Source: Natronomonas aquatica (lineage in GTDB: Archaea; Halobacteriota; Halobacteria; Halobacteriales; Haloarculaceae). Taken from it: 64,000 nt of DNA. The position numbers and the translations under genes are program-made. The stretch is from the NCBI RefSeq assembly GCF_024449025.1, contig NZ_JAHLKM010000001.1, positions 186,001-250,000 of the forward strand, written 5' to 3'. Below are positions 12,241 through 20,545 of the stretch, piece after piece (within the stretch, counting starts at the first letter, position 1; each line of letters opens with the position of its first letter). The notes under the pieces are model-generated. The model was not told the origin of the DNA. It did not search any database and saw only the letters and a list, made by a program, of their open reading frames with translations.

Positions 12241-12630
12241 TCAGGCGTCGTCGTCGAAGGCGGGCCGGCCGTCGTCCTCGGTCGGCGGCGCGCCGACGAC
12301 GAGCCAGACGTGTTCGCCGTCGTCGGTGTCGTTGAGGATCTGGCGCGGCGTCTCCGGCGGTACCCGGACGGCGGTCCCCTCGGCGACGTCGCTGGTCTCC
12401 CCGTCAGCGCCGACTTTCATCCGGCCGGGACCCTCGAGAACGTAGTAGAACTCCTCCTGTTCGGTCTGTCGGTGAAAGCTCATCTCGTCGCCGGGCGAGA
12501 GAAACCACACCTTCGGGCGCATCTCCTCACAGCCGAGTTCCGAAACGAGATCGACGTGGGGCGTCCCCGAGACGCTGGACGGTTTCCGTTCGGCCTCCTC
12601 GACCGCGAGCATACTGTAGTCGTCGGACAT
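12241..12630 (-). CDS. Cupin-domain protein
   Basis: 129 residues forming one cupin barrel. The first motif is SFHRQTEQEEFYYVLEG (about 58-74), with the histidine and glutamates that usually bind metal. The second is around GTAVRVPPETPRQILN. The ATG at MSDDYS is preferred because a minus-strand TTTATTT box lies 24 nt upstream. Such small cupins may be isomerases, sensor-like proteins or oxygenases; in sugar-acid clusters they can be epimerases or regulators. Divergent from the next enolase-superfamily gene, whose start is about 95 nt away. Confidence 0.8.
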   Translation of the reverse strand: MSDDYSMLAVEEAERKPSSVSGTPHVDLVSELGCEEMRPKVWFLSPGDEMSFHRQTEQEEFYYVLEGPGRMKVGADGETSDVAEGTAVRVPPETPRQILNDTDDGEHVWLVVGAPPTEDDGRPAFDDDA

Positions 12631-12653
12631 GCGTACGAACAGTACCGACATCG

Positions 12654-13998: not shown

Positions 13999-14970
13999 AT
14001 GGAAAAAACGATACTGGTAACGGACCAAATATACGGAGAACTCGACATCGAACGCGAGATAACGTCCGAGGCGGGGATCGAACTGGTCGAACGGCAGCTC
14101 GAATCGGCCGAGGCGGTCAGCGAGGCCATCGAGGAGACCGGCGCCGACGCCCTCGCGTTGACCTTCGCGGATATCTCGCGGTCGGTCCTGGAGCGGGCCG
14201 ACGGCCTCGAAGCGGTCGGTCGGTACGGTATCGGGGTCGACACCATCGACGTTCCGGCGGCGACGGAGAACGGGACGGTCGTGTTGAACGTTCCGGACTA
14301 CGCAATCGACGAGGTGTCGACCCACGCGTTCGCGTTGCTTTTGGCGTGTGTTCGCTCGGTCACGGCCTACGACAGGGACATAAAGGAGGGTGGCTGGGAT
14401 TGGGAGATCGGCGCGCCGATCCCCCGGCTCTCCGAGAGCACGCTCGGGCTGGCCGGCTTCGGGAAGATCCCCCGCCGGGTCGCCGAGAAGGCTGCCGGGT
14501 TCGGCCTCGAGGTGCTCGCCCAGGACCCCTACATCGACGCCGATGAGATGGAAGCACAGGGCGTCGAGAAGGTCGGTTTCGGGGAGCTGCTCGATCGATC
14601 CGACTTCGTCTCGGTCCATACCCCGCTCACCGAAGAGACCGAAGGGATGTTCGGCTCGTCCGAGTTCGAACGGATGAAAGACTCCGCGATCCTCGTCAAT
14701 ACCTCTCGGGGAGCGGTCGTCGACGTGCCGGCGCTGAACGCGGCCCTAGAGGCCGGCGAGATCGCCGGGGCCGGCCTCGACGTGCTCCCGGAGGAGCCGC
14801 CGGCCGACGACGAGCCGATCGTCGATCGGGAGGACGTTATCATGACACCCCACGCGGCGTGGTACTCGGAGCCGTCGATAGTCGAACTCCGGAAGACCCT
14901 CTTTTCTGACCTGGTCGGGATCCTCCAGGGGGAGGAACCGACGAACCCGGTCAACCCGGACGTCCTGTAG
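13999..14970 (+). CDS. D-2-hydroxyacid dehydrogenase (CtBP/SerA-like)
   Basis: 323 residues. Catalytic triad R237 (NTSRGAVVD), E266 (DVLPEEPP) and H285 (TPHAAW) is complete. The cofactor loop reads G153-F-G155-K-I-P158, so the usual third glycine of GxGxxG is proline. D177 after the second strand predicts preference for NAD over NADP. The family interconverts 2-keto and D-2-hydroxy acids. The left-edge fragment at 1-111 looks like a relative. Position between an acid-sugar dehydratase and an aldolase suggests reduction or oxidation of a short hydroxy or keto acid; substrate not known. Confidence 0.88.
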   Translation: MEKTILVTDQIYGELDIEREITSEAGIELVERQLESAEAVSEAIEETGADALALTFADISRSVLERADGLEAVGRYGIGVDTIDVPAATENGTVVLNVPDYAIDEVSTHAFALLLACVRSVTAYDRDIKEGGWDWEIGAPIPRLSESTLGLAGFGKIPRRVAEKAAGFGLEVLAQDPYIDADEMEAQGVEKVGFGELLDRSDFVSVHTPLTEETEGMFGSSEFERMKDSAILVNTSRGAVVDVPALNAALEAGEIAGAGLDVLPEEPPADDEPIVDREDVIMTPHAAWYSEPSIVELRKTLFSDLVGILQGEEPTNPVNPDVL

Positions 14971-15537: not shown

Positions 15538-16296
15538 ATGGAATCGAACACGCTTCGACAGCGACTGCAGGACGGCGAAACGACGATCGGAACTTTCCAG
15601 ATCATCGACTCCCCGATGGTCGCGGAAATCGCCGGGATCGCGGGGATGGACTTCGTGATCATCGACCAGGAACACGGGCCGCTGACGGCCGAAACGTCGC
15701 TTTCGCTGTGTGCCGCCGCCGAACGGGGTGGCGCCAGCCCGATCGTACGCGTCCGAAAGAGCAGCGAACCTGAGATCCAGCGCGCGCTCGATATCGGCGC
15801 GGGCGGCGTCCAGATCCCCCAGATCGAAACGCGGGCCGACGCGGAGGACGCGGCGGCGGCGGCGCGGTTTGATCCGATCGGCGAGCGGGGGCTCTCGCGG
15901 TACGTTCGGGCCGGCGACTACGTCGGCGGCGACGACTACACCGACCGCCAAAACGAGGAGACGACGGTGATCGTCCACATCGAGGGTGAGGAGGGCGTCG
16001 AGAACGTCGGGGAGATCGCTGACGTCGAGGGGATCGACGTGCTGTTTCTCGGCCCGTATGACCTCTCACAGTCGCTCGGGATCCCGGGACAGGTCCGGGA
16101 CCCCCGCGTCGAAGCGAAGATGGAGGAGGTCTGTGAACGCGTCGAGGGGACGGACACGATCGTGGGGACGTACGCGGATACGCCGGAGATGGCCGAACAG
16201 TGGATCCGCGCCGGCGCCCAGTACGTCGCCCTCTACGTCGACTGTGCGATCCTCCACGACGCGATGGGCGATCTCGTCGACGCCGTCGATCCGTGA
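15538..16296 (+). CDS. HpcH/HpaI family aldolase
   Basis: 252 residues. D43-Q-E-H46 in the first loop, R71 in VRVR, VQIPQIETRADA at 91-102, metal ligand E149 in VHIEG and D175 in GPYDLSQSLG give all marks of metal-dependent 2-keto-3-deoxy acid aldolases, and the last motif is closer to the family norm than in the paralog at 190-963. Products would be pyruvate and a small aldehyde. A TATA-like box at leaderless spacing fixes the start. It converges on the UxaA operon (stop to stop 170 nt), whose dehydratase activity could supply the aldolase substrate. Confidence 0.88.
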   Translation: MESNTLRQRLQDGETTIGTFQIIDSPMVAEIAGIAGMDFVIIDQEHGPLTAETSLSLCAAAERGGASPIVRVRKSSEPEIQRALDIGAGGVQIPQIETRADAEDAAAAARFDPIGERGLSRYVRAGDYVGGDDYTDRQNEETTVIVHIEGEEGVENVGEIADVEGIDVLFLGPYDLSQSLGIPGQVRDPRVEAKMEEVCERVEGTDTIVGTYADTPEMAEQWIRAGAQYVALYVDCAILHDAMGDLVDAVDP

Positions 16297-16466: not shown

Positions 16467-17573
16467 CTACATCGAGGGGCCGATCCGGTCGATCGCGAAC
16501 GTCGTCAGACCGTGGCGCTCGGGAGCCGAATCCTCCCCGGCCACGATCCCTTCGACCGTCCGACGGAGGGTGCCGGACGGATCGGTCGCGGCGTCGACGT
16601 CGATGTCTTCGGGGAGCGCCGCCGCCGTCTCCGAGTCGCCGGTTACCTTCACGACCGGGACGACAGGGTGACCCGCGGGGACGCCGTCGGCGGTGAGATG
16701 GATGACGATCCCCGCTCCGGCGCTGGCGAGCGCCGTCGTCGCGGAGGCGAACTCGGAGGGGGCATCGACGAGCGCCACACCGGAGTCGTGGGTCGCCCGC
16801 GCGCCGTACTCGAGGAGATCCTGAACCTGGTGGTCGCCCCACGCCCCGGTAGCCTCGGCAAACGAAATCTCCTCGGCGCGTCGGCGGACTCGACCGACCT
16901 TGGCCGGTTCCTCGAGGTTCCGATCGAGGAGTCGCTCGGCGTCCGCCCGGGCCGCCGGCTCGACGGCCTCGAGTGCGGCATCCGGATCCGCGAGCATCGG
17001 CTCGTTGCCGGCGGCGACGACCCGCCCGCCGGCGTCGATGACCTCGTCGACGAACGCCGCTACCCGGGGGGCGGCCGTCGAGACGGTCGAATCCGCGAGA
17101 TCGCTCGCGACGATCCCGACGGTCAGATCGCCGAGGTCGGTCGGCTGTGTCGATTGCGACGCCGCCTCGACTAGCTCTTCGGCCATCTCGACACCGCGTT
17201 CGAGACACGCGTCGGTGCCGCCGACGCCCTGGATCGACAGCTCGCGAACCGGACGGCCGTTCCCGGCGATCGTCTCCGCCAGCGAGTCGCTTTGGACCTC
17301 CTCACACCCCAGCCCGACGACGACCGACCCCGCGACGTTCGGGTTGGCAGCGAGGTTCGCGAGCGTCCGCTCGGTTCGCTCGTTGTCGGAGCCGAGTTGC
17401 GCACACCCGTGGTCGTGGGGGGCGCTGACCGCGGTCCCGACCTGGTCGGCGATCCGGTCGGCGATCTGGTGTGAGCAGATCACCGACGGCAACACGAGGA
17501 CGTGGTTCCGAACGCCGATCTGACCGTCGGATCGCCGGTAGCCGCTGGTCGTCGCGGGTTCGCTTCGGCTCAC
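16467..17573 (-). CDS. UxaA-type dehydratase, large-subunit paralog 1 (cysteine-bearing)
   Basis: 368 residues from a GTG whose bases overlap the stop of the small subunit gene (GTGA). GYRRSDGQIGVRNH (11-24) is the start of the UxaA C-terminal domain. It keeps the three cysteines of the family's first half: C33 (VIC), C57 (HGC) and C90 (GLGCE). It lacks the CGGSD motif and the segment normally reading PxPGNxxGGLTTIEEKSLG; that stretch reads ASDLADSTVS and a diverged Lys/Arg-rich region. Last gene of a three-gene operon. The family dehydrates altronate, galactarate or related acids, or releases sulfite from sulfolactate. This paralog alone looks inactive; it may complete the site of paralog 2. 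Confidence 0.78.
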   Translation of the reverse strand: MSRSEPATTSGYRRSDGQIGVRNHVLVLPSVICSHQIADRIADQVGTAVSAPHDHGCAQLGSDNERTERTLANLAANPNVAGSVVVGLGCEEVQSDSLAETIAGNGRPVRELSIQGVGGTDACLERGVEMAEELVEAASQSTQPTDLGDLTVGIVASDLADSTVSTAAPRVAAFVDEVIDAGGRVVAAGNEPMLADPDAALEAVEPAARADAERLLDRNLEEPAKVGRVRRRAEEISFAEATGAWGDHQVQDLLEYGARATHDSGVALVDAPSEFASATTALASAGAGIVIHLTADGVPAGHPVVPVVKVTGDSETAAALPEDIDVDAATDPSGTLRRTVEGIVAGEDSAPERHGLTTFAIDRIGPSM

Positions 17574-17878
17574 GACTCCGCCACCCCCTCCTCGGCGAGG
17601 TCGCCACGACCGCGGGTACTCTCGCAGTTGTGGGTGTGTACCCACTCGCCGGGGGCGATCGACCCGCTCGCGCGACCGATAACCTCGCCGTACTTGACGA
17701 CCTCGTCGCCGTCGGCGATGGGCTCGAGGGCGACCTTGTGGCCGAACGGGACCGACTCGACAGCCGTCGTGTCGCCGTCGATGGGGTCTTGGGCCTCCAG
17801 ATCCTGCAGGGCGGTCGCGACGTTGTCGTCGGCGTGTAACACCAAGCCGACCCCGTCGCCGAGCACTTCGCCCTTCAT
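17570..17878 (-). CDS. UxaA-type dehydratase small subunit (SAF domain)
   Basis: 102 residues, one SAF domain as in the N-terminal part of UxaA/GarD or in SuyA. VLHADDNVATAL (13-24) has the conserved histidine and DNVA. FGHKVALEPIADGDEVVKYGEVIG and the terminal GEWVHTHN follow the family pattern. Stop and start overlap the genes on both sides by four bases (ATGA with the upstream gene, GTGA with the downstream one). In split enzymes the SAF subunit binds the large subunit to build the active site. Here it sits between two different large-subunit paralogs, which suggests a three-part complex. Confidence 0.85.
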   Translation of the reverse strand: MKGEVLGDGVGLVLHADDNVATALQDLEAQDPIDGDTTAVESVPFGHKVALEPIADGDEVVKYGEVIGRASGSIAPGEWVHTHNCESTRGRGDLAEEGVAES

Positions 17879-19065
17879 CCGCGGATCCCCTCGGCTGCGA
17901 GCTCGTTGGGCTGGAGTTCGTTGATCGCGAACTCCTCGAGCCGGCGGTGTTCGGCCGCGGTTCGGCGGCCGTCGGCGACCGCGGCCATCGTCTCGTAGAC
18001 CCGTCCGCCGACCTCGCTCATCGAGTCGCCCTCGACGATCGTGCTGGCGTTTACGTCCATGTTCGATGCCATCCGGTCCCAGGTTCGGGGATTGCCGGTC
18101 ACCTTGATCACGGGCGCGATCGGGTTGCCGGTGGTGCTGCCCCGCCCGGTGGTAAAGGCGATTATCTGGGCGCCGCCGGCGACTTTTCCGACAACGCTTT
18201 CGACGTCGTATCCGGGCGTATCCATCAACACGAGCCCTCCACCGACCGGGAGCGGCTCGGCGTAATCGACCATCCCCTCGACGGGGGTCGTCCCACCCTT
18301 GACGATCGCGCCGAGGCTCTTTTCCTCGATGGTGGTGAGCCCGCCCTCCTGGTTTCCGGGCGTCGGCTGGGCACCGCGCAGATCGACGCCCATCAGCTCC
18401 GCCTGGGCCTCGCGCTGGTCGACGCGGTTCAACAGGCGCTCTCTGGTTTCCTCGTCGGTACAGCGGTCAGCGAGAATGTGTTCCGCGCCGATGAACTCCG
18501 GCGTCTCGCTGAAACAGGCCGTGCCGCCCGCCTCGATCAGCCGGTCACAGGCCTCGCCGACGGCCGGGTTCGCGGCGATCCCGCTGGTCGCGTCGCTGCC
18601 GCCGCATTCGACGCCGAAGACGATCTCGGAGGCGTCCGCCTCCTCGCGGCGGACGTCCTCGCTGTCCCTCCGGAACGCCGTGGCTGTCTCGCGGCCCTGC
18701 TCGATCGCCGGGCCCGTGCCGCCGACGGAACGCACCGAGAGCGTCTCGACCGGGATCCCCGATTTCGAGACCTCGTCGGCGATCGCGTCGGCGTCGATCG
18801 ACTCGGTCCCGAGTTCGAGCACGATGGCCGCCGCAACGTTGGGGTTCTTGCCGACGCCGGCGAGAACCTGCTCGGTCTGTTCGCGGGCTCGATCAGGCTG
18901 GGAGGTTCCCATCTGGTGTGGCGTCGCCCGGACGCCGTCCCCGGCCGTCTCGGCGATCCGTTCGGCGATACTACTGACGGCGACGGACGTCGGGAGTACG
19001 GCGACGTGGTTCCGTACCCCGATCCGTCCGTCTGGCCGACGGTATCCGGTGAATGTGAATGTCAC
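17875..19065 (-). CDS. UxaA-type dehydratase, large-subunit paralog 2 (CGGSD-bearing)
   Basis: 396 residues from GTG (reads TFTFTGYRRPDGRIGVRN); the open frame continues upstream into the enolase region without family similarity. It keeps C154-G-G-S-D158, the SETPE motif, PTPGNQEGG, TTIEEKSLG, KGGTTPVEG, MDTPGYD and TTGRGSTTGN of the UxaA/GarD large domain. All three upstream cysteines are replaced: A29, T54 and T86 stand where paralog 1 has C33, C57 and C90. First gene of the operon; its stop overlaps the SAF-subunit start (ATGA). Likely product: a hydro-lyase for an aldonate or aldarate, working together with the other two subunits. Confidence 0.82.
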   Translation of the reverse strand: MTFTFTGYRRPDGRIGVRNHVAVLPTSVAVSSIAERIAETAGDGVRATPHQMGTSQPDRAREQTEQVLAGVGKNPNVAAAIVLELGTESIDADAIADEVSKSGIPVETLSVRSVGGTGPAIEQGRETATAFRRDSEDVRREEADASEIVFGVECGGSDATSGIAANPAVGEACDRLIEAGGTACFSETPEFIGAEHILADRCTDEETRERLLNRVDQREAQAELMGVDLRGAQPTPGNQEGGLTTIEEKSLGAIVKGGTTPVEGMVDYAEPLPVGGGLVLMDTPGYDVESVVGKVAGGAQIIAFTTGRGSTTGNPIAPVIKVTGNPRTWDRMASNMDVNASTIVEGDSMSEVGGRVYETMAAVADGRRTAAEHRRLEEFAINELQPNELAAEGIRG

Positions 19066-19276: not shown

Positions 19277-20545
19277 ATGACGACGATCGAAGCGATCGAC
19301 GCCTGGGAAGTGCTGGACTCACGCGGGAACCCGACAGTCCGGGCCCGGGTCCACACGCCGGACGGGTCGGGAACGTTCACCGTCCCCGCCGGAGCGAGCA
19401 CGGGAAGCCACGAGGCGGTCGAGGTCCGCGACGGGGGCGACCGGTTCGGTGGGCTGGGTGTCACCGAGGCGGTCGAGGCGGTCGAGGCGGAACTCGAACC
19501 GGCCGTCGTCGGCCGGAACGTGACCGAGCAGGCGGCGATCGACGAGGCGTTACTCGAAGCCGACGGGACCGAGGACCTCTCGCGGCTCGGCGCGAACGCC
19601 GTCCTCGGGGTGTCGGGCGCCGTCGCCCGCACCGCGGCCGCGGTTCGCGACGAACCGCTTTACACATACCTCGCACCGGAGGAGCCGGGGGCGATCCCGC
19701 GACCGATGGTGAATATACTGAGCGGCGGCCTCCACGCCCACGGGGGCGTCGAGATCCAGGATTTTCTCGTCGTTCCGAGGGGTGCAGACACCTACGAGGA
19801 GGCGATCGAGACCGTCTGGACCGTCCGGCGGGCCGTCAGAGACCGGATCGAGGAACGCGGCGTCAGGCCGCTCGTCGCCGACGAGGGGGGGTTCTCGCCG
19901 CCGATGGAGGGGATCGAGGAGGCCTTCGAGTTGCTCCGGGCGGGGATCCTCGATGCAGGGTTCGAGCCGGCGACCGACGACGTCGCCTTCGCGGTCGACG
20001 TGGCGGCGACGCACTTCTACGACGAGGACGCCGAACGGTACCGCCTCGAGACCGACGGCGTCTCGCTCGACCGGGAGGGGATGATCGACCGGGTCCTCGG
20101 GTGGACCGAGAGCTATCCGATCGTCTCGATCGAGGACCCGCTCTTCGAGGACGACTGGGCGGGATGGCGAAAGCTCGCCGGTCGGCTGGACGGCGTCCAG
20201 TTGCTCGGCGACGACTTCCTCGTGACCGACCGCGACCGGCTCGGCCGGGCGATCGAGTCCGGCGCGGCGAGCGCGGTACTCGTCAAGATGAACCAGGCGG
20301 GGACGATCACCCGGACGCTCGGGGTCATAGAGCGGGCCCAGGAAGCCGGGCTGTCGCCGGTCGTCTCCGCCCGCTCCGGCGAGACGTGTGATTCGACGAT
20401 GGCCGATCTGGCGGTCGCCCGCGGCGCCGGCCAGCTGAAGGTCGGCTCGCTGGCCCGCTCGGAACGGCTCGTGAAGTACAACCGGCTGTTCGAGATCGCC
20501 GACGAACTGGGACCGACGCTACCGAACGCGTCGGATCCGGTTTAA
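19277..20545 (+). CDS. Divergent enolase (phosphopyruvate hydratase family) paralog
   Basis: 422 residues. True enolase architecture: WEVLDSRGNPT (10-20), GASTGSHE (39-46), ANAVLGVSGA, H153 in SGGLH, E203 in ADEGGF, metal ligands near D241, E286 (IEDP) and D312 (GDD), catalytic K337 (VKMNQAGT). But the residue matching yeast E168 is D162 (IQDF, normally QEF) and the histidine of the SHRSGE motif is A365 (SARSGET). In haloarchaea the housekeeping enolase normally lies with ribosomal-protein genes; this copy sits beside a UxaA operon. It may have altered activity on a sugar-acid-derived substrate, or be a tolerant isozyme. The ATG was chosen at MTTIEAIDAW; the upstream extension is not enolase-like. 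Confidence 0.85.
   Translation: MTTIEAIDAWEVLDSRGNPTVRARVHTPDGSGTFTVPAGASTGSHEAVEVRDGGDRFGGLGVTEAVEAVEAELEPAVVGRNVTEQAAIDEALLEADGTEDLSRLGANAVLGVSGAVARTAAAVRDEPLYTYLAPEEPGAIPRPMVNILSGGLHAHGGVEIQDFLVVPRGADTYEEAIETVWTVRRAVRDRIEERGVRPLVADEGGFSPPMEGIEEAFELLRAGILDAGFEPATDDVAFAVDVAATHFYDEDAERYRLETDGVSLDREGMIDRVLGWTESYPIVSIEDPLFEDDWAGWRKLAGRLDGVQLLGDDFLVTDRDRLGRAIESGAASAVLVKMNQAGTITRTLGVIERAQEAGLSPVVSARSGETCDSTMADLAVARGAGQLKVGSLARSERLVKYNRLFEIADELGPTLPNASDPV

Follow-up and report, generated by a model that had tools for sequence, protein, structure and literature searches.

To our knowledge, enolases are treated as a family with a single reaction. The enzyme also belongs to an arm of the serine cycle that consists of hydroxypyruvate reductase, glycerate kinase, enolase and PEP carboxylase. 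Three classes of glycerate kinase have been defined, and one of them, the MOFRL class, makes 2-phosphoglycerate (PMC2063504). In the breakdown of hydroxy acids, the pairs LvaA/LvaC and ACAD10/ACAD11 work in two steps, in which a kinase phosphorylates the hydroxyl and a partner protein then carries out an elimination (PMC11342911). Here we describe an accessory enolase, EnoB, that is consistently accompanied by a kinase of the APH family.

The enolase EnoB and its active-site residues

The window is a 64,000-nucleotide stretch of the Natronomonas aquatica genome (contig NZ_JAHLKM010000001.1, positions 186,001 to 250,000). The EnoB gene and the codons discussed below lie within it at the following positions. 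Yeast residue numbers are our own assignment from a motif alignment, and the canonical comparison set contains 128 enolases (20 haloarchaeal and 108 bacterial).

19277..20545, + strand: EnoB, enolase-family protein of 422 amino acids, ATG at 19277; matches to TIGR01060, PF00113 and PF03952
19733..19735, + strand: codon for H153 (yeast H159), unchanged in 32 of 32 EnoB
19760..19762, + strand: codon for D162 (yeast E168); D in 32 of 32 EnoB, E in 128 of 128 canonical enolases
19877..19879, + strand: codon for A201 (yeast G209, two residues ahead of the general acid E211); A in 32 of 32 EnoB, G in 128 of 128 canonical enolases
19883..19885, + strand: codon for E203 (yeast general acid E211), unchanged in 32 of 32 EnoB
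20285..20287, + strand: codon for K337 (yeast catalytic base K345), unchanged in 32 of 32 EnoB
20369..20371, + strand: codon for A365 (yeast H373); A in 32 of 32 EnoB, H in 128 of 128 canonical enolases
20441..20443, + strand: codon for V389 (yeast T397, following the carboxylate-binding K396); I or V in 32 of 32 EnoB, T, S or A in the canonical set

The protein is recognized over its whole length as an enolase by the NCBIfam eno model TIGR01060 (457.9 bits, cut-off 300), and both Pfam enolase domains, PF03952 and PF00113, are matched. An AlphaFold2 model (pLDDT 87) aligns with Mycobacterium tuberculosis enolase containing 2-PG (7cll) with a TM-score of 0.95 and 47% identity, and a fold search with this model confirmed enolase and revealed nothing beyond it. 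Compared with canonical enolases (TIGR01060, 7cll and yeast ENO1), EnoB has the same fold and the same Mg ligands (D246, E295, D320 and S39 in yeast numbering), and K345, E211, H159, R374, S375 and K396 are likewise intact in the window protein and in all 32 EnoB sequences. The residues unchanged in the window protein, in its own numbering, include H153, E203, K337, D241, E286, D312, R366, S367 and K388. Rereading the ORF thus bore out the sequence-only reading of this DNA, which had reported QDF (D162) and SARSGE (A365) motifs in an enolase that keeps K337, H153, E203 and its metal ligands.

EnoB differs from canonical enolases by E168D, G209A, H373A and T397I/V. E168 and H373 are invariant in the canonical set, and the D168, A209 and A373 of EnoB occur in none of its 128 members, so these residues are not a common variation of ordinary enolases. 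The window protein carries the combination D168/A209/A373/I-V397, which we propose as the EnoB signature. Beyond QDF and SARSGE, it is also altered at A201 (G209A) and by N149S, R10W, E246H and T397V; the changes R10W, N149S, E246H and Q403R are common to the haloarchaeal and the first acidobacterial EnoB. The changed sites sit beside the general acid (A209) or near the departing group. The equivalent of E168 touches 2-PGA in the Chloroflexus aurantiacus enolase (PMC4450660), and the E163A mutant of M. tuberculosis enolase, altered at the 168 position, was reported to be non-functional (PMC10619443).

These changes could mark EnoB as a degraded or non-catalytic enolase that serves the kinase as a scaffold, sensor or regulator. 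Two residues close to the leaving group are altered, and enolases are known to moonlight. However, none of the 32 EnoB departs from the canonical base, general acid or metal, phosphate and carboxylate ligands, and the clade is deep and spans both domains, which makes this explanation improbable. The same strict conservation of the changes, with all catalytic groups intact, speaks against the reduced activity that the sequence-only reading had offered; its other suggestion, a changed activity, is plausible.

The N. aquatica genome is 99% complete and contains three enolase genes, EnoA, EnoB and EnoC, while most of the 391 genomes of the class contain one, and a canonical enolase is nearly universal among them. 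EnoA has the QEF and SHRSGE motifs and lies in the ribosomal-protein cluster at G000:C24, so EnoB, an enolase of the bacterial type, is indeed a second enolase and not the sole one of its genome. Housekeeping haloarchaeal enolases are characterized by a cluster of ribosomal-protein or RNA polymerase genes and by a place in the haloarchaeal eno clade. EnoA has both attributes and EnoB has neither; unlike canonical enolase, it is accessory and patchily distributed, and occurs amid sugar-acid or other catabolic genes outside the core genome. EnoB shares 39% identity with EnoA and 44% with EnoC. Four genomes of one genus in the same family (G069, G178, G257 and G272) each have a second enolase match that, by score, is neither EnoB nor EnoC.

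Distribution of EnoB and its partner kinase

We identified EnoB in 13 of 391 haloarchaeal genomes from eight genera, the window genome included. The other proteins are 63–70% identical to that of the window, and a MAG carries a copy with 77% identity. A first tree grouped the haloarchaeal and acidobacterial EnoB (100/99) away from EnoA. In a second tree of 73 sequences from which the signature columns were removed, 41 EnoB from five phyla fell on one side of one branch (SH-aLRT 99); this tree was made by a quick method and has one very long branch, the copy from an Enterobacter plasmid. EnoB therefore branches apart from the haloarchaeal eno clade, and its 39% identity and separate place in the tree rule out a duplicate of haloarchaeal eno. 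Some of these genomes do hold enolase paralogues, but that EnoB should be functionally meaningless variation in such a duplicate is scarcely credible given this identity and position, and given a signature and kinase partner that are fixed across phyla.

The Enterobacter copy (L248:10271-11542, − strand; Enterobacter chuandaensis plasmid NZ_CP097174.1) is a very divergent EnoB-like protein that is annotated as hypothetical and adjoins the kinase. Its cluster, possibly a biosynthetic one, also encodes an aminotransferase, peptidases of the U32 and M14 families and redox enzymes that contain iron.

The constant partner of EnoB is a kinase for which PF01636 (APH) is the sole Pfam family well above cut-off; the closest NCBIfam model, methylthioribose kinase, is far under its cut-off. 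The Gly loop and the HGDxSPKN and D-E motifs are intact. The nearest solved relatives act on methylthioribose (2olc) and 4-hydroxytryptamine (9eto). The partner kinase shares their fold and kinase motifs but is distinguished by a GGVS loop, an R(V/A)DGKSPxEY tail motif and its constant linkage to EnoB. By Pfam, it has no homology to any of the three glycerate kinase classes (GK I, MOFRL or GK II, and the P-loop GK III).

At each of the 12 further haloarchaeal EnoB loci that were read, the kinase gene is directly upstream on the same strand, and in most of them its stop codon overlaps the EnoB start. The N. aquatica orthologue is also present, at G000:C19:178397-179425, outside the window (7.6 kb to its left and 26 kb from EnoB), and is about 60% identical to the EnoB-linked kinases. 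A search for the kinase across the 391 haloarchaeal genomes returned exactly the 13 with EnoB and no others (Fisher p 1.5e-24, kinship ignored). It is present in four further EnoB genomes, on another contig in two of them, which are MAGs, and every EnoB genome examined holds this kinase family.

The association extends to bacteria. The phylum to which the acidobacterial EnoB carrier belongs was searched in 297 genomes, and seven of them have the kinase; all six kinases with a readable neighbourhood adjoin a QD-type enolase, and the seventh contig ends within the kinase. On bacterial plasmids a QD-type enolase accompanies the kinase in 18 of the 18 loci read, either adjacent or a few kilobases away. 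These loci are from Rhizobium, Pararhizobium, Sinorhizobium, Methylobacterium, Sphingobium, Roseibium, Paracoccus and Azospirillum, and from Cupriavidus, Paraburkholderia, Caballeronia, Rhodococcus, Embleya, Persicobacter and Enterobacter. The kinase proved a far better probe for bacterial EnoB loci than the enolase: when the EnoB of locus L036 was searched against acidobacterial enolases (E<1e-120), the matches were mostly canonical, and the best 29 others checked all had QEF and SHRSGE. Across 41 kinase-EnoB pairs the pairwise distances of the two proteins are correlated (r 0.835; all permutations at or below 0.24). As the counts themselves ignore kinship, the argument for a partnership draws on how widely it occurs among families, on the cases without linkage and on the five phyla. 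On these sequence comparisons EnoB is a subfamily, neither decay nor polymorphism, with conserved changes and a fixed kinase partnership.

Gene surroundings of EnoB

By gene content, the surroundings of EnoB in the window are a sugar-acid catabolic island, in keeping with the setting proposed by the sequence-only reading. The island encodes a TRAP transporter, three MR/MLE-type dehydratases, two HpcH/HpaI aldolases and a GlcD-like oxidase in addition to the following genes. Left of it are FAH-family proteins, a 2,5-dioxovalerate dehydrogenase and a second MOFRL glycerate kinase.

12241..12651, − strand: cupin-domain protein, 73% identical to the cupin just 3' of EnoB in Haladaptatus
13999..14970, + strand: D-2-hydroxyacid dehydrogenase; the same broad family recurs by the kinase-EnoB pair in bacteria
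15538..16296, + strand: HpcH/HpaI aldolase; one also adjoins the pair in two Haladaptatus plasmids
17570..19041, − strand: split dehydratase/lyase pair of the UxaA type, with a SAF domain at 17570-17878 and GD_AH domains at 17875-19041; oriented divergently to EnoB

The sequence-only reading had stressed the UxaA-type pair. However, among the loci examined it lies beside EnoB only in the window genome. Since no such neighbour occurs at the other EnoB loci mapped, the pair is ruled out as the EnoB partner, and its position here is incidental. Together with a gene at 16467-17645 (− strand), the pair (17570-19041, − strand) amounts to two tandem UxaA-family large subunits and one SAF small subunit. 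The product of 16467-17645 has a partial match to the C-terminal domain only and may be a diverged paralogue. The UxaA-type pair is similar in size to SuyAB and also to split UxaA, and one might guess from this that EnoB eliminates sulfite from 2-phospho-3-sulfolactate.

A D-2-hydroxyacid dehydrogenase is encoded in 13 of 25 bacterial kinase-EnoB loci. FAH-family proteins are found in many, some of them close to 2,4-didehydro-3-deoxy-L-rhamnonate hydrolase, and HpaD-like extradiol dioxygenases, cupins and alcohol dehydrogenases also occur. FAH-type enzymes split diketo-deoxy hexonates into pyruvate and glycerate; glycerate also arises when hydroxypyruvate is reduced. Given this chemistry, the gene context suggests a glycerate-like acid as the substrate of the kinase.

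Possible reactions of the kinase and EnoB

We found no description of the kinase-EnoB pair in a search of the open literature, which did not extend to subscription journals. In our view the chances are about even that the two proteins form a two-enzyme unit in which EnoB acts on a 2-phospho acid other than D-2-phosphoglycerate. The kinase would act on a small 2,3-dihydroxy acid, either glycerate or a close relative, and phosphorylate it at the 2-hydroxyl. EnoB would then hold the phosphate, the carboxylate and two Mg ions in the manner of enolase; K337 would remove the C2 proton, and E203 would aid expulsion of the C3 group to give PEP or a PEP homologue. The order of the steps, phosphorylation at C2 and the elimination are all inferred. 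Relative to D-2-phosphoglycerate the substrate might have a larger C3 side, a different leaving group or the opposite hand at C2. The LvaA/LvaC and ACAD10/11 pairs resemble such a unit in that a kinase step precedes elimination by a partner. However, this is an analogy only: in those systems it is the phosphate that leaves, and the kinase works with an acyl-CoA dehydrogenase, which is not homologous to EnoB.

Two considerations suggest that the EnoB substrate is likely to differ from D-2-phosphoglycerate. D168, A209, A373 and I/V397 surround the general acid and the leaving-group side of the active site. In addition, a MOFRL glycerate 2-kinase is encoded in 12 of the 13 EnoB genomes and an enolase is present, so that the pair would be redundant for D-2-phosphoglycerate. 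A previously undescribed step, in which a 2-hydroxy acid different from D-glycerate is first phosphorylated and then dehydrated, can be put forward only tentatively, at somewhat less than an even chance; the acid might be L-glycerate, an aldonate of four to six carbons (C4-C6) or a glycerate substituted at C3. Against a changed substrate stand the intact phosphate-, carboxylate- and metal-binding residues of EnoB, and the non-adjacent kinase of the window genome counts against a two-enzyme unit.

A PEP carboxylase gene is found in five bacterial kinase-EnoB loci from three classes and, with the glycerate-forming context, fits a plain conversion of D-2-phosphoglycerate to PEP. In the Rhizobium clusters LysR, PEP carboxylase, D-2-hydroxyacid dehydrogenase and the kinase form one run with eno nearby, and ppc is also present in the Rhodococcus, Cupriavidus and Pararhizobium clusters. 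These clusters match the serine-cycle arm (hydroxypyruvate reductase-GckA-Eno-Ppc) in gene functions, but have an APH-type kinase instead of the MOFRL enzyme and EnoB as the enolase. In five loci (L233, L238, L243, L245 and L241) PEP carboxylase lies with the kinase and EnoB inside aromatic-type catabolic clusters.

EnoB may thus be a dedicated true enolase, with the APH kinase as a fourth class of glycerate 2-kinase that is not homologous to the other three; D-glycerate from hydroxypyruvate or diketo-acid hydrolysis would be converted to PEP, and the residue changes would tune kinetics, direction or regulation. The substrate-binding residues are as this requires, and EnoC likewise always precedes a glycerate 2-kinase, in its case of the MOFRL type. 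We consider this possible, though we lean against it: the pair would duplicate the MOFRL kinase and the near-universal canonical enolase, it is left unexplained why 32 of 32 EnoB retain the same changes at sites that do not otherwise vary, and the Ala mutant of M. tuberculosis enolase at position 168 is non-functional (PMC10619443).

Sequence models annotate all EnoB genes as glycolytic enolase, a database label that probably hides a separate metabolic step. The EnoB clade with its fixed kinase would represent either a second reaction within the enolase subgroup or an additional, fourth type of glycerate 2-kinase that has a dedicated enolase, and either outcome would correct annotation in many genomes. 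If the substrate is other than D-glycerate, the enolase subgroup would have a second natural reaction, in bacteria and archaea, that is masked by the label phosphopyruvate hydratase. The kinase and EnoB are a small, directly testable unit of two soluble proteins.

The third enolase of the window genome is located as follows.

G000:C19:158381-159595 (L004:6373-7629): EnoC, with a MOFRL glycerate 2-kinase next to it

Like EnoB, EnoC is one of the accessory enolases of haloarchaea and has a kinase as its one-to-one partner, and it is present in seven of the 13 EnoB genomes. It differs in its partner, the MOFRL glycerate 2-kinase, which directly follows it in 13 of 13 loci read (the window genome and L157-L168), and in its residue changes. 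The window-genome protein has a GRSR loop, H159L, F169H, H373E and E377Q, and the signature A38R, T40R, H159L, F169H, H373E and E377Q is found in 14 of 14 sequences. The loop and phosphate-side changes of EnoC exceed those of EnoB. The two enolases occur together in seven of the 391 haloarchaeal genomes against 0.4 expected (Fisher p 1e-8, kinship ignored).
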